A model generated the notes under the pieces. That model was given only the letters and a program-made list of their open reading frames with translations, was not told the DNA's origin and ran no database searches. Shown piece by piece: positions 17,977 through 49,574 of a DNA stretch of 64,000 nucleotides. Each line of letters opens with the position of its first letter. Position 1 is the first letter of the stretch. The stretch spans positions 16,268-80,267 of IMG/VR virus record IMGVR_UViG_3300017971_000261; one strand, 5' to 3'. The DNA is from a virus. Made by a program: the position numbers and the translations under genes.

Positions 17977-18144
17977 ATGTCACACTCGAAGGGGAACAAG
18001 CATGCTGGCAAGCGAAATTACGTCCACCAGGGTTGGGTAGGATCAAAATGGTGGAAACAGGCTCGGTATGCTCGTTGGGATGACCACAGACAGAAGGATA
18101 GTGGCCTTCCTTTCAGGCGAAAAGACAAAAAGAAGAAACGTTAG
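17977..18144 (+). CDS. Small basic protein (55 residues)
   Basis: The protein begins MSHSKGNKHAGKRNYVHQGW and ends in a Lys/Arg-rich tail (FRRKDKKKKR). GGGAG at 17964-17968, eight bases before ATG, and a promoter at 17926-17954 support it. It is rich in Trp, Lys and His and probably binds nucleic acid, although function is unknown. Its TAG stop shares its final G with the first base of the interrupted tRNA-Leu. Confidence 0.6.
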   Translation: MSHSKGNKHAGKRNYVHQGWVGSKWWKQARYARWDDHRQKDSGLPFRRKDKKKKR

Positions 18145-18356
18145 GTCGGGTGGCGAAATTGGCAGACGCGCAGCGACAAGCATTGGCGACAACTGTACCA
18201 GGCGTTGCCGTGCTGTCGACTCTACAACACCTTGCCGCCATCGAGTGGCGTACGACGCCACTGGTACCGGCGAACAGCCATGGCGGATGCCGTAGGGTCT
18301 ACATTGAGGACGCTGTGTCCCATAGGGGCGTGCTGGTTCGAATCCAGCCCCGGCCT
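18144..18356 (+). tRNA. tRNA-Leu interrupted in the anticodon loop
   Basis: All arms of a class II tRNA are present. The acceptor GGTCGGG (18144-18150) pairs with CCCGGCC (18349-18355); the D-arm is GCG...CGC (18153-18169). The anticodon stem CAGCG (18171-18175) pairs with CGCTG (18311-18315), the variable arm is GTCCC/GGGGC and the T-arm is GCTGG-TTCGAAT-CCAGC. Between the two halves of the anticodon arm about 128 extra bases are inserted. Removing them leaves a 7-base loop; depending on the exact splice point the anticodon is GAG (or AAG), leucine in each case. Discriminator base is T instead of the A normal for bacterial tRNA-Leu. CCA is not encoded. Confidence 0.75.
18176..18303 (+). ncRNA. 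Structured 128-nt insertion in tRNA-Leu (putative small intron)
   Basis: It can form four helices: A, GTACCAG (18195-18201) with CTGGTAC (18261-18267); B, GACTCTAC (18218-18225) with GTAGGGTC (18292-18299); C, CCGCCAT (18235-18241) with ATGGCGG (18280-18286); and D, hairpin TGGCGT-ACG-ACGCCA (18246-18260) inside a 7-bp stem. Helix A crosses B and C, giving a pseudoknot. The topology recalls the P3/P7 core of group I introns, but the element is well below their usual size and lacks a recognisable P4-P6. Boundaries are uncertain by up to 3 nt. Confidence 0.55.
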
Positions 18357-18391
18357 TTACTTCGCCCATTTTTTGCCGACTGGAGACAGAC

Positions 18392-20337: not shown

Positions 20338-20421
20338 GTCCCGGTGGTGGAACTGGCAGACACGCGGGCCCGAGGAGCCCGTGCTCGAAAGAGCGTGAGG
20401 GTTCGAATCCCTCCCGGGACA
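20338..20421 (+). tRNA. tRNA-Leu(GAG) with C33
   Basis: Acceptor GTCCCGG (20338-20344) pairs with CCGGGAC (20414-20420), discriminator A. The D-arm is GTG...CAC, anticodon stem CGGGC/GCCCG (20365-20381), loop CCGAGGA with anticodon GAG at 20372-20374, long variable arm (GCTC/GAGC) and T-arm GAGGG-TTCGAAT-CCCTC. Position 33, nearly always U, is C here. CCA is not encoded. Confidence 0.93.
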
Positions 20422-33481: not shown

Positions 33482-34303
33482 ATGGACAGGGAAACGACAA
33501 AAGAGACAACCAAGAATTCAAACTCATCTGTCGATGCTGTCGTGGAATCCCTGTCTCGTTTTGCTGATCTGTTTGATTTGCCACATCTCTTTCTGATGGG
33601 CGGTTATCCTCGTCACCTATACTACGAAAAGCCCTGTACGGATAACCGGTTGGATGTCGTTTGCGCTTACGATGATCTTACAGAGGAGATGGCTAATCTG
33701 TTTGCATCAGAGATTCTTGGCCGTCTTCCGTCCTTCAAAGGCCACAGGGGCGATATCATCATCAAGACATCGGACGACGAGCCGAACATCGAGCTGCATT
33801 TCCAGTCTTACAGCCCAAACTCTCATCTCTACAACCCTGACTTGAAAAATCATTTGGCTGCTAGCGAGGCTGACACCATCCCCATTATGCACAATGCGTA
33901 TGGAAGAGATTTTACTGTAGATACACTTGCTTATGCTTTAGATGATGGTTATCTCTACGACCCAACAGGTCGTGCATCTAGGGATTTGAAAGACAAAAAG
34001 CTGGACAGCATGCTCTCTCCAGAAACCCTGTTCAAGTTCTGCCCAAAAGCAGCTTTTAGGGCACTGAATCTTGCACTTGATGAGGATCTCGACATTTCTC
34101 CGAGACTTGGTAAAGGCATACGATCTGCCATACCGAGGATCATGGCTGTCATACCAGAAAACGAACGCACCAGAAATGCAATCAGGACAATAGTTAAGCA
34201 CCGGGAGGATGGCCTCGATTTACTGAAGAAGTATAACCTTGACCGGTTCCTAATCAATGATAAGGTCAAGAACATACTGAAACAGGAGGCTAAAGGTGCA
34301 TGA
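33482..34303 (+). CDS. CCA-adding / poly(A) polymerase head-domain-like nucleotidyltransferase
   Basis: A 273-residue protein resembling the head domain of tRNA nucleotidyltransferases. FLMGGYPRHLYYEKP (37-51) corresponds to the GGxVRDxLLGRP motif and TDNRLDVV (53-60) to the catalytic D-x-D strand. RDFTVDTLAYALDDGYLYDP (142-161) corresponds to RRDFTINALA...DP-x-G, and FKFCPKAAFRALNLALDEDL to the FxxDPLRxLRA segment. Deviations: His for Asp in GGxxRD, and only one Asp in the expected D-x-D spacing, so activity is uncertain. Four phage tRNAs lacking CCA are encoded 11-15 kb upstream. The next gene overlaps by 8 bp. Confidence 0.65.
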   Translation: MDRETTKETTKNSNSSVDAVVESLSRFADLFDLPHLFLMGGYPRHLYYEKPCTDNRLDVVCAYDDLTEEMANLFASEILGRLPSFKGHRGDIIIKTSDDEPNIELHFQSYSPNSHLYNPDLKNHLAASEADTIPIMHNAYGRDFTVDTLAYALDDGYLYDPTGRASRDLKDKKLDSMLSPETLFKFCPKAAFRALNLALDEDLDISPRLGKGIRSAIPRIMAVIPENERTRNAIRTIVKHREDGLDLLKKYNLDRFLINDKVKNILKQEAKGA

Positions 34304-45143: not shown

Positions 45144-48100
45144 ATGTCAAAACTAATACTGCCTGATGATCCTGAGTTCCACCAGCCCACAGTGTGGGGT
45201 GATGCAATCGCCAAGGGGCTTACGCCAAAGTCGGCATCCGATAAAATCGTCAAGCAAGCTTCACAAGAAGCAGCCAACCAAGTTCGTTATGCCCAGACCA
45301 TGCTTACGCCAACCCAAGAATGGTGGTACAAGCAAGCCCAAATGGCTAGTCCCGGCATCAACAACATGGTGACGAGCCCCATGTGGTTCTCTCCGATACA
45401 TACACCAATGAATTGGCAAATTGCCTCAAAACGGAGAGAGATATATAATTGGTGCAGGTTCTTTTATACCAATGAAGCTAAAGTTGCTGCTGCTATAGAT
45501 TTCTATTGTTTCGATCCCACCATGCAAGTGCTGCTCGCAGATGGTAGACAAAAAGCTATCTCATCTGTTCAGCCTGGCGATCTCGTACGTTCACATGATG
45601 GCTCGTCTAATGTTGTCAAAAACAAGTTCGTGCGCCGCACCAGAGAAACAATGTTGAGCGTCGCTGTTTCTGGAATATGCGGTGGAAAAACAATGAGGGT
45701 AACAACTGGCCACGAAATACTTACCGAACGTGACGGAGAGATCACGTTCGTTAAAGCTGGCGAACTTCGAAAAGGTGATTATCTTCTTACCCCTATTCTT
45801 TACGATAGTATACCGGACTGCGAGACAATAAATAAAGATCTAGCATGGCTGCTCGGCGTTTACGCTGCCGAAGGTTGTGGAATACCCTATGAAAAAGAAC
45901 TTTCAGATGGCTCGGTCCACAAGAGATTCAAGGGTGTCTATTTTACTATTAGCATTGATGAAAGAGATTTCGCTGATCGTATACGTTCTGCGGTACACCG
46001 AGTATACGGGGAAAATAAAGTAACTATTACAGAAATACCGGAGAAAGGCAAAATAAGGATATCAGCATATGGTTTGCAGATAGCTGACGACCTGATAGGC
46101 CTTTGTCCTGGTATGAGTAGAACAGGAACGAAACGATTTGCACCGGTCGTCATGGGATTTGGCAAAAAAACTCTACTGTCCATCCTGTGCGGCTTCCTGG
46201 ATGGTGATGGATGTTTCAATGCTGCCAACGGTTTCCAGGGTGTTGGTGTTTCCAAAACTCTGTGCGAGCAGATAGCTAATATTTGTGACATACTAGGACT
46301 TGAGTACAGCTTCACAAGCACGCGGATCTCTAAGGGAAATCGTCAGACGTGTTACAACATAAGAATCTCACGTCGAAGTTGTGACCTGTTGTCTGACGCC
46401 TGTTATAAGATTTACGAACATCAAATAGATGAAAGCAAAATACGCAACACACCTTATTTTGCAAAGGGAAAATACATATACCGTAAGATTAGATTTATCA
46501 AAGAGTACGAATATGAAGGAAATGTTTATGATCTTGAAATAGAAAACTCCCATTCCTATGTTGTAAACAGGGTTGCTGTACACAACAGCGGCTTTCCGCT
46601 TAACGGGTTTGATCTGGCCTGCAAAGACAATAACGTTCTCAAGTTTTTCGAGCATAAGATAGTAAGAAAGCTTGATCTACTCAATATTCTAAGGCAAGTT
46701 GCGTCCGAGTACTATATGCTAGGTGATGTCTTTGTCCACACCGACATCGAATGTCCGCACTGTGGTGGTACGGCCAGAGACCCGAAGACCGGACGCATGT
46801 GCAATCACCCGGACGGGATGATCAGCAAGCTTCGGATACTGAATCCGGACTGGATCGAGGTGCACCAGCCGGTCATATCTGATGAGCCGTACATCGTACT
46901 CATACCGGACGAAGAACTCACTACGATTGTGATGCGACGTCGACCGAGACAGATCTATGATAGCTTGCCGGACTACATCAAACAGTACGTCGCGGCCCAC
47001 CAGCCGATCCCGCTCTCGAACCGCGTAACGTCACACCTTAAGCATATGCCCGTTCCATACGGAACCTACGGAACAAGCCTCATTCGTAGGCTTTTCCAGA
47101 CGTTGGCATACAAGACAAAAATCATGACTGCGAACTGGATTGTCGCAGAGAGACTAATCGTTCCGGTACGTATCGTCAAGATCGGTAGCGACCAGCGTCC
47201 AGCATCGTCTGCCGACATCTCTGATGTCCAAATGCAGTTAGCTGCAACGGCTAATGATCCTAATCTGACCATAGTGACCCACCACAATTTCGAACTCGAA
47301 TGGTATGGTGCCTGTTTTCCGCAAACCAATGATATACAAGTACTTACGCCAGAAGGATGGAAAACATACGAAGAAATCAATGACGATGATCTTGTCGGAA
47401 CATTTAACAAGGAATCTGGTATTCTAGAGTTCCAGCAATTCACACAAAGACATGAATACGAATATGATTCATCACTATACGGGCCGCTTTATTCATTTGG
47501 TGATAAATTGATGGATATACCAGTTACGCCGAACCACCGCATGCTAGTAAGGAAAGGAAGATGGACTGATCGCTATGACACTGTAATGTCTCAGGATGTA
47601 AAAAGACACCATAAAATCCCGTGCCGAGTTGGCTGGAATGGCAAACTTCCCCCATCTTTGCCTTATCGGTCTTGCTCGGCTTTGTCGAATATGTCGCTCC
47701 ATGATTTCTTGCGTTTTGCTGGTTACTATGTCTCTGAGGGGCACGTACAAAAGTGGTTCAAGAGCAGGGTATCGACTGAAAAGGTTCCACAATCTATAGG
47801 AATAAGCCAGAATGTTGACCAGCCAGCCTACGAAAAGATAAAGTCGCTTATGTACGGTATCTCAGATCGTGCGTATATACACAAAGACGAGCGTCGTGAG
47901 GTAGCAACCCATACAGTAAAAATTTCCGATGTTCGTTTGGCTGATTATATGGTACAAGAGTTTGGTGCCGGGTCTTCAGAAAAACTGGTGCCACGTTGGA
48001 TTCTGGATCTGCCTAAAGCTGAACTCCGTATTTTCCTTAATGCAGCTATGGAAGGAGACGGGCAGACAAGAGAAATGAAAACCGGCCGCAGATTTCGATA

Positions 48101-49574
48101 TTCTACAGTCTCTAAGCATCTGGCTGATGACATTTTCGAAATCGTTCTAAAGCTTGGATATACTCCATATGTTACCGTAGAATCTGTGAAATCTTTACAT
48201 AGATCTGATATCTACCGTGTATCATGGAGCAACCTAAATAGAACGAAGGAACGTCAGGTCCAAGATATATCACGCCGTGACTACAAGGGAAAAGTGTGGT
48301 GTTTGACCGTGCCCAACGAATACCTTGTTGTTCGTTTTTCGGGTAGATGTTTTATAGTTGGCAACTCTGGTAAAATCCTCCAAGTCACGTCCGAGATGGA
48401 GTATGTCGGCAAGGAAATTTTAGACGGCTTTATGCTGAATCAAGCACTCCTAAATGGTGAGATGGCGTCCTACAGTTCCGCCCAAGTAGGTGTTGAAACT
48501 CTTATTCGTCGTATTGAATCATTCCGCTACATCTTGGCCGAATGGGTTCAAGAGAACATTTTCCGGCCGGTTGCTGAAATGCAGGGATTTGTTGACGAAG
48601 CCGAGAGCGAGAAGATCGGTGAAAAGGTTTATCTGTATCCAAAGCTCAAGTGGTTTGACCTTAATATTCGTGACAAGACACAGTATCATCAGATTCTTCT
48701 GCAGTTGCATGACAAGCAGATCATCTCGACCCAGACGCTGTGTGAGGAACTGGACATCGACTACGATCAGGAAGTGGCACGTCTGCGTTACGAGCAGATA
48801 CAGGGCGGTGGAGCAGCGATGATGGCTGGTGGAGCACCGGGTGCTGGTGGAATGGGACCCATGCCGGGTGGAGGCGGTCCGGCGGGTGGTCCACTTGGGC
48901 CCGCTGCCGGTCCCGGTGGTGAAATGGCTCCAGGCGGTGACATGGGAGGGGCCGGGGGTATGCCCGGTGGCGATCTTGGAGGCCCAATGGCACCGGCCGC
49001 TGGCGTTCAGAAGGTAACCAAGAAGGGGAAAGGTGGTCAGCAAGAGGATGTTGCACCGGCGACACCACCCACGGTCAGGCTGACGAGCCTTGAACAGAAG
49101 ATGGCTCAGATGCTGTTCCGATCTGTGGATGCTCAGGGTATTCACCGAGATCAAGTCAGGGCCCAGTTCCCAGTTGAGAACCCACATGGCGGCAAGCCAT
49201 ATTCTCTCGATTTCGCCCTGCCAAAGCTTAAATTGGCCATCGAGGTGGATGGCGAGGTGTGGCACAACAGCCCGAAAAAGATCGCATCTGACAAAGAACG
49301 CGATTATTTGTTAGCACAAAGAGGATGGACCGTTCTTCGGTACGATGATAGCACCATCGAGGAAGCTCCTAAGGCAGTTGAGCAGTCCGTCTTTGAGTAC
49401 ATCAAGAACATGGCTGACAAATACCGTTCCGGGTTGAAGACTGCGTCCATCGACGAAGGAGCAGGCATCAATCTTTACCAATTAAAGAAAGGCAAGTTAT
49501 CGAACCTTGATGATGATTGGGGCCGTTACGTGCGTCCTACACACAAAACCAAAATAGGGGATCTCTCGCGGTAA
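45144..49574 (+). CDS. Portal protein with two inteins and a C-terminal DUF559-type nuclease domain
   Basis: A 1476-residue precursor; after removal of two inteins (residues 122-481 and 724-1074) the product has 765 residues. The exteins read as a phage portal, the dodecameric DNA gate of the head (NWCRFFYTNEAKVAAAIDFY, VASEYYMLGDVFVHTDIECP, VTSEMEYVGKEILDGFMLNQ). A Gly/Pro/Met-rich linker (about 1220-1290) leads to a C-terminal domain (about 1313-1426) resembling DUF559/Vsr-like PD-(D/E)xK nucleases: LDFALPKLKLAIEVDGEVWH then KERDYLLAQRGWTVLRYDD. An attached nuclease is unusual for a portal. Confidence 0.85.
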   Translation: MSKLILPDDPEFHQPTVWGDAIAKGLTPKSASDKIVKQASQEAANQVRYAQTMLTPTQEWWYKQAQMASPGINNMVTSPMWFSPIHTPMNWQIASKRREIYNWCRFFYTNEAKVAAAIDFYCFDPTMQVLLADGRQKAISSVQPGDLVRSHDGSSNVVKNKFVRRTRETMLSVAVSGICGGKTMRVTTGHEILTERDGEITFVKAGELRKGDYLLTPILYDSIPDCETINKDLAWLLGVYAAEGCGIPYEKELSDGSVHKRFKGVYFTISIDERDFADRIRSAVHRVYGENKVTITEIPEKGKIRISAYGLQIADDLIGLCPGMSRTGTKRFAPVVMGFGKKTLLSILCGFLDGDGCFNAANGFQGVGVSKTLCEQIANICDILGLEYSFTSTRISKGNRQTCYNIRISRRSCDLLSDACYKIYEHQIDESKIRNTPYFAKGKYIYRKIRFIKEYEYEGNVYDLEIENSHSYVVNRVAVHNSGFPLNGFDLACKDNNVLKFFEHKIVRKLDLLNILRQVASEYYMLGDVFVHTDIECPHCGGTARDPKTGRMCNHPDGMISKLRILNPDWIEVHQPVISDEPYIVLIPDEELTTIVMRRRPRQIYDSLPDYIKQYVAAHQPIPLSNRVTSHLKHMPVPYGTYGTSLIRRLFQTLAYKTKIMTANWIVAERLIVPVRIVKIGSDQRPASSADISDVQMQLAATANDPNLTIVTHHNFELEWYGACFPQTNDIQVLTPEGWKTYEEINDDDLVGTFNKESGILEFQQFTQRHEYEYDSSLYGPLYSFGDKLMDIPVTPNHRMLVRKGRWTDRYDTVMSQDVKRHHKIPCRVGWNGKLPPSLPYRSCSALSNMSLHDFLRFAGYYVSEGHVQKWFKSRVSTEKVPQSIGISQNVDQPAYEKIKSLMYGISDRAYIHKDERREVATHTVKISDVRLADYMVQEFGAGSSEKLVPRWILDLPKAELRIFLNAAMEGDGQTREMKTGRRFRYSTVSKHLADDIFEIVLKLGYTPYVTVESVKSLHRSDIYRVSWSNLNRTKERQVQDISRRDYKGKVWCLTVPNEYLVVRFSGRCFIVGNSGKILQVTSEMEYVGKEILDGFMLNQALLNGEMASYSSAQVGVETLIRRIESFRYILAEWVQENIFRPVAEMQGFVDEAESEKIGEKVYLYPKLKWFDLNIRDKTQYHQILLQLHDKQIISTQTLCEELDIDYDQEVARLRYEQIQGGGAAMMAGGAPGAGGMGPMPGGGGPAGGPLGPAAGPGGEMAPGGDMGGAGGMPGGDLGGPMAPAAGVQKVTKKGKGGQQEDVAPATPPTVRLTSLEQKMAQMLFRSVDAQGIHRDQVRAQFPVENPHGGKPYSLDFALPKLKLAIEVDGEVWHNSPKKIASDKERDYLLAQRGWTVLRYDDSTIEEAPKAVEQSVFEYIKNMADKYRSGLKTASIDEGAGINLYQLKKGKLSNLDDDWGRYVRPTHKTKIGDLSR
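45507..46586 (+). mobile_element. Intein 1 in portal (LAGLIDADG type)
   Basis: It has 360 residues, from Cys122 to Asn481. Splicing blocks: N-terminal CFDPTMQVLLADG, block B TTGHEIL, block F YDLEIENSHSYVV and C-terminal VAVHN followed by Ser482. A homing endonuclease lies inside, with two LAGLIDADG-type helices (LAWLLGVYAAEG and LSILCGFLDGDG). The insertion splits AAIDFY from SGFPLNGFDL. Confidence 0.9.
47313..48365 (+). mobile_element. Intein 2 in portal (LAGLIDADG type)
   Basis: It has 351 residues, from Cys724 to Asn1074. Blocks: CFPQTNDIQVLTPEG at the N-terminus, block B VTPNHRML, block F VWCLTVPNEYLVV and C-terminal RCFIVGN before Ser1075. Endonuclease helices are FLRFAGYYVSEG and LRIFLNAAMEGDG. 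It penultimately uses Gly-Asn rather than His-Asn. The insertion splits ELEWYGA from SGKILQVTSE. Confidence 0.88.

Follow-up and report, generated by a model that had tools for sequence, protein, structure and literature searches.

A class II tRNA-Leu gene carried by a fragment of a virus genome is divided by 128 nucleotides lying in its anticodon loop, and this insert is given here about an even chance of being an anticodon-loop intron, belonging to no known class, of a phage tRNA-Leu-type gene. The locus is best read as carrying an intron-like insert because removal restores the anticodon arm bluntly and exactly, the insert has a strong predicted fold, and comparable precise inserts are found in phage tRNAs.

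The split tRNA-Leu gene and its insert

The stretch analysed (the window) covers 64 kb of an 80,267-base IMG/VR virus record. The major capsid protein of the record shares 60-83% identity with those from 80 other IMG/VR contigs, some of them 330-550 kb long, so that the record represents part of the genome of a huge-phage relative. The tRNA-Leu genes of the window lie at 18144 (split), 20338 (GAG), 21396 (CAA) and 22569 (UAA), and HNH-type free-standing genes sit between the last three. The window also holds a Poly(A) polymerase/CCA-adding head domain (33482-34303), while its tRNA genes do not encode CCA, and a long portal-like ORF (45144-49574) with, apparently, two inteins, as judged by eye from the translation. 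The parts of the split gene, and its unsplit counterpart, are the following:

18144-18356, + strand: body of the split class II tRNA-Leu, anticodon GAG, with the insert in the anticodon loop
18144-18175, + strand: 5' tRNA part, with the acceptor 5' strand (18144-18150) and the D arm (18153-18169)
18171-18175, + strand: anticodon-stem 5' strand CAGCG, within the 5' tRNA part
18176-18303 (cut at 31/32) or 18177-18304 (cut at 32/33), + strand: insert, the proposed intron, placed by ARAGORN, exact restoration and fold
18304-18356, + strand: 3' tRNA part, with the loop UUGAGGA (18304-18310) and its anticodon GAG (18306-18308)
18311-18348, + strand: stem CGCUG (18311-18315), variable arm (18316-18331) and T arm (18332-18348) of the 3' part
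18349-18356, + strand: acceptor 3' strand (18349-18355) and discriminator U (18356)
20338-20421, + strand: second tRNA-Leu(GAG), unsplit, with C33 instead of the near-universal U33

When introns are allowed, ARAGORN calls a tRNA-Leu(gag) at 18143-18357 in which a 128-nt insert separates CAGCG from TTGAG; the gene is missed by the same program without the intron option and also by Rfam. An independent scan of the window for a T arm, a 7/7 acceptor stem, a D arm and an over-long middle returned the split gene as its sole match. Every arm is paired (acceptor 7/7, D 3/3, anticodon 5/5, the variable arm, T 5/5), and removal of the insert yields CAGCG-UUGAGGA-CGCUG, a canonical GAG arm with a 5/5 stem, a 7-nt loop, U33 and G37; among shuffled middles of the gene, 3.3% also restore the stem, the 7-nt loop and U33 exactly. 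The coordinates, the ARAGORN call and the exact restoration thus bear out the first-pass annotation, which had described intact, fully paired tRNA arms and some 128 nt in the anticodon arm whose loss leaves a 7-nt leucine loop. A point that it had missed is the discriminator. As a class II tRNA-Leu, the gene after removal has every arm paired and a Leu anticodon with U33; position 73 is U and not the expected A73, which is present in 34/34 scored class II Leu tRNAs of the same phages, and this argues that the putative spliced product would not be a normal tRNA-Leu.

The cut falls at 31/32 (G/ACAAG...CUACA/U) or, with A32 kept in the 5' exon, at 32/33 (A/CAAG...ACAU/U). The minimum-energy fold of the insert has two hairpins; these, and a possible crossing pair, are the following:

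18179-18214, + strand: hairpin 1, 5 + 6 bp, whose loop carries GUACCAG (18195-18201)
18218-18299, + strand: hairpin 2, pairing 18218-18225 with 18292-18299 and 18235-18241 with 18280-18286
18244-18279, + strand: inner helices of hairpin 2, 18244-18251 with 18255-18262 and 18269-18271 with 18277-18279
18261-18267, + strand: CUGGUAC, exact complement of GUACCAG at 18195-18201, a possible kissing or pseudoknot pair

Folded alone, the insert reaches -57.1 kcal/mol (z -3.8), a stability equalled by 1 of 200 shuffles, and compared with 200 other 128-nt stretches sampled from the window it has the lowest energy and the third-lowest z. The nested two-hairpin fold is therefore well supported as a prediction. 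Four helices, one of them crossing the others, had been proposed at first pass: all of them exist and the nested ones hold up, whereas the crossing one, a perfect 7-bp helix that shares 2 nt with the hairpin at 18244-18262, brings no gain once a 7 kcal/mol pseudoknot penalty is applied, so that a pseudoknot in the insert is possible rather than favoured in energy. Because 15% of shuffled inserts likewise keep the acceptor and D stems in the predicted fold, folding of the insert independently of the tRNA is weak evidence for an intron.

Over-long tRNA genes of related phages

Relatives of the insert itself were sought by several routes. Blastn against phages and against 50 phage records related by their major capsid protein gave only short chance or tRNA-arm matches, and gapped tRNA-Leu patterns run over all of IMG/VR revealed no further tRNA-Leu with an insert of 100-135 nt at this site, the matches being tandem or partial tRNAs or non-tRNA DNA. 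A pattern of the insert core was run on viral and bacterial contigs; its best loci (L125 and L126) were dropped, the match in L126 being protein-coding. Neighbouring genes (DUF4419, GyrB, subtilase, HNH) led to no close relative at a syntenic locus. The covariance search put forward at first pass as a check was run with a single-sequence model of the insert (R1) and found no credible match in about 50 related records or in the extra loci; as none of these searches gave a homolog, the window insert has no covariation to support it and appears to be an orphan.

The gene was also set among the tRNA arrays of its kin, in a sample of 728 kb of tRNA-rich DNA that comes from this phage and other huge ones and contains 384 ordinary tRNAs. 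A T arm, a perfect acceptor stem, a D arm and an over-long middle were found together in 30 cases, and in none when the acceptor was reversed; 27 of the 30 are at least 100 nt long and 3 are under 100 nt. An exact cut that gives back a perfectly paired anticodon stem with a 7-nt loop and U33 exists in 10/27, against 0.27 expected from shuffled middles, and these ten include the window gene and a group I-like case of 257 nt. The restorable genes with short inserts (8, among them two homologous pairs between phages) all accept a cut at 28/29, as in L138 3569 (CG/insert/ACC-AUUUGGA-GGUCG, Gln UUG), L143 5201 (UU/insert/CGU-CUGCAAA-ACGAA, Cys GCA) and L101 5393 (CG/insert/GGU-CUCUUAA-ACCCG, Lys CUU). 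Five over-long insert-bearing genes of the relatives score above the cut-off of the Rfam tRNA model. The other 17/27 have no exact intron solution; some of them may be artefacts, RNAs that stay unspliced, or genes interrupted elsewhere.

Among the ARAGORN intron calls in the relatives, several look artefactual; a pair in L120, for instance, resembles a duplicated tRNA 5' half. Further observations are tandem over-long or broken tRNA-Leu-like genes with the common acceptor AGTCAGG (L098/L099, about 9095-9476 in L099; L183 14362-14803), tRNAs of 73-77 nt with Leu anticodons and short variable loops (L102 17146 and 17598; L114 11917 and 15117; L117 15236 and 15436), and a partial tmRNA gene of a huge phage (L143 1-353, - strand, 88 bits).

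Two families of inserts recur at 28/29. Both lie in tRNA genes. Family alpha, from phages G055 and G062, is about 50 nt long, with a 6-bp hairpin followed by CWGCAAU; family beta, from G040, G041 and G043, reads UAAAACAYC, a hairpin, then GGYCGAAYGGAANAAGGUUAAC. Their copies are located as follows:

L143 2773-2896 and 5201-5316: alpha
L145 7011-7127 and 6513-6639 (-): alpha
L146 14970-15021 (-): alpha
L144 17525-17573 (-): alpha
L101 5079-5197 and 5393-5519: alpha
L103 3075-3196 (-): beta
L140 12579-12700: beta
L111 19390-19529 (-): beta
L138 3569-3696: beta
L112 679-802 (-): beta

An exact cut at 28/29 restores the anticodon arm in 4/8 alpha copies and in 4/5 beta copies. The alpha hairpin covaries (7 double-change cells; 0/500 shuffles), and more copies were recovered with a model of this family, two of which lie in tRNA genes whose acceptor stem is fully paired. 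Against known phages both families give short tRNA-arm matches only. The window insert shares with them the kind of virus, the gene context and the exact restoration of the anticodon arm; unlike them, it is longer, fits only 31/32 or 32/33 and is without their conserved motifs, and the 28/29 family model (R2) does not match it. For proof, the 28/29 families are a better handle than the window insert.

Alternative readings and known intron classes

A first alternative, which we consider rather improbable, is that the locus is a decaying tRNA, a redundant tRNA-Leu recently entered by structured DNA such as a hairpin-type mobile element or recombination debris. U73 and the second tRNA-Leu(GAG) weigh against a working tRNA-Leu and speak for decay, as does the failure to find homologs of the insert; the HNH genes lying among the adjacent tRNAs indicate an active mobile-DNA setting. 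On the other hand, direct reading of the junctions shows every exon base retained and neither a target duplication nor terminal inverted repeats; moreover, the paired arms are all intact, and an accidental insertion would seldom fall exactly at the border of stem and loop.

A second alternative, to which only a modest chance is given, keeps the RNA unspliced, as a stable processed tRNA-like scaffold in which the insert is a permanent domain of the anticodon arm; a role outside translation, as regulator, anticodon-nuclease decoy or other, is proposed for it. Besides agreeing with U73 and the spare GAG gene, this reading draws on the lowest-energy structure predicted for the unspliced RNA, which keeps the acceptor, D, T and variable arms alongside both hairpins of the insert and forms the anticodon stem with a shift of one pair. 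The 17 over-long genes of the relatives without an exact solution fit it too, and a precedent exists in the non-translational pseudo-tRNA tRNA-Other of Bacillus cereus which, as described in PMC3399842, is tRNA-shaped with features against translation, like the split gene. Removal of the insert nevertheless restores exactly the canonical loop UUGAGGA, for which a scaffold would have no need.

To our knowledge, the introns of bacterial tRNA genes are of group I and only in rare cases of group II, and all group I introns known are well above 128 nt. Bacterial group I introns in tRNA genes, for example tRNA-Leu(UAA) of cyanobacteria and others, likewise lie in the anticodon loop and restore the tRNA when removed; the window insert differs from them in its size and in the absence of a core match, of the splice-site U and of the terminal G. 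In fact, neither the group I core (RF00028, Intron_gpI) at E values up to 10 nor any other Rfam family, even at E 10, matches the insert, and direct reading finds a 5' exon without final U, no terminal G of the insert at either junction, and candidate P3 and P7 strands only about 10 nt apart, which leaves no room for P4-P6. The first-pass proposal of an extreme group I derivative is therefore not supported, and it is highly improbable that the insert is a group I intron in degenerate or extreme form, even though GACUC/GGGUC could mimic P7 and a 257-nt insert in a phage tRNA-Leu(UAA) (L101 3173-3511), which Intron_gpI matches weakly (17.7 bits, below cut-off, E 0.039), also fits 31/32. For group II, there are neither GUGYG...AY ends, by reading, nor a domain V, and no Rfam match.

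The protein-spliced introns of archaeal and eukaryotic tRNAs are, like the window insert, small inserts of the anticodon region, sometimes at unusual positions. They are cut at a bulge-helix-bulge (BHB; two 3-nt bulges around a 4-bp helix), whereas no BHB can be drawn for the window insert, since at 31/32 and at 32/33 alike the ends of exon and intron cannot form a 4-bp helix. A tRNA-splicing endonuclease domain (tRNA_int_endo) was found neither in the record nor in 17 relatives, the phage records being fragments, and neither RtcB nor another RNA ligase turned up in the 80-kb fragment.

Proposed removal of the insert and its meaning

If the insert is an intron of no known class, its site would most likely lie between nucleotides 31 and 32, and the phage would remove 128 nt from the transcript, leaving a canonical GAG anticodon arm. 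Self-splicing, an option raised at first pass, is not supported. As a guess at the route, held tentatively and with rather low confidence, the RNA would be cut and then joined by an RNA ligase of the RtcB or Rnl type; this is preferred to autocatalysis, as such ligases are encoded by some of the huge-phage relatives whose tRNA inserts are small and precise. RtcB or other RNA ligases are present in several insert-bearing phages, and in G055 an insert-bearing tRNA gene is followed after about 210 nt by an RtcB gene (G055:C1:198526-199671); in the 334 kb of G043, which carries inserts, no ligase was found.

A wider claim is possible, though we judge it somewhat doubtful, namely that huge phages carry undescribed tRNA introns outside groups I and II and the BHB type, comprising the short 28/29 families and this 128-nt insert at 31/32, which would be removed by cut-and-ligate enzymes of phage or host or by a small ribozyme. 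A 2014 report described phage tRNA genes as intron-free (PMC3984707), and literature searches found no published reports of such phage tRNA introns. If true, the unclassed 128-nt insert, together with the short inserts that recur at one fixed position, would represent an unrecognised route of tRNA splicing in phages, and the short-insert families are conserved enough for it to be tested directly.
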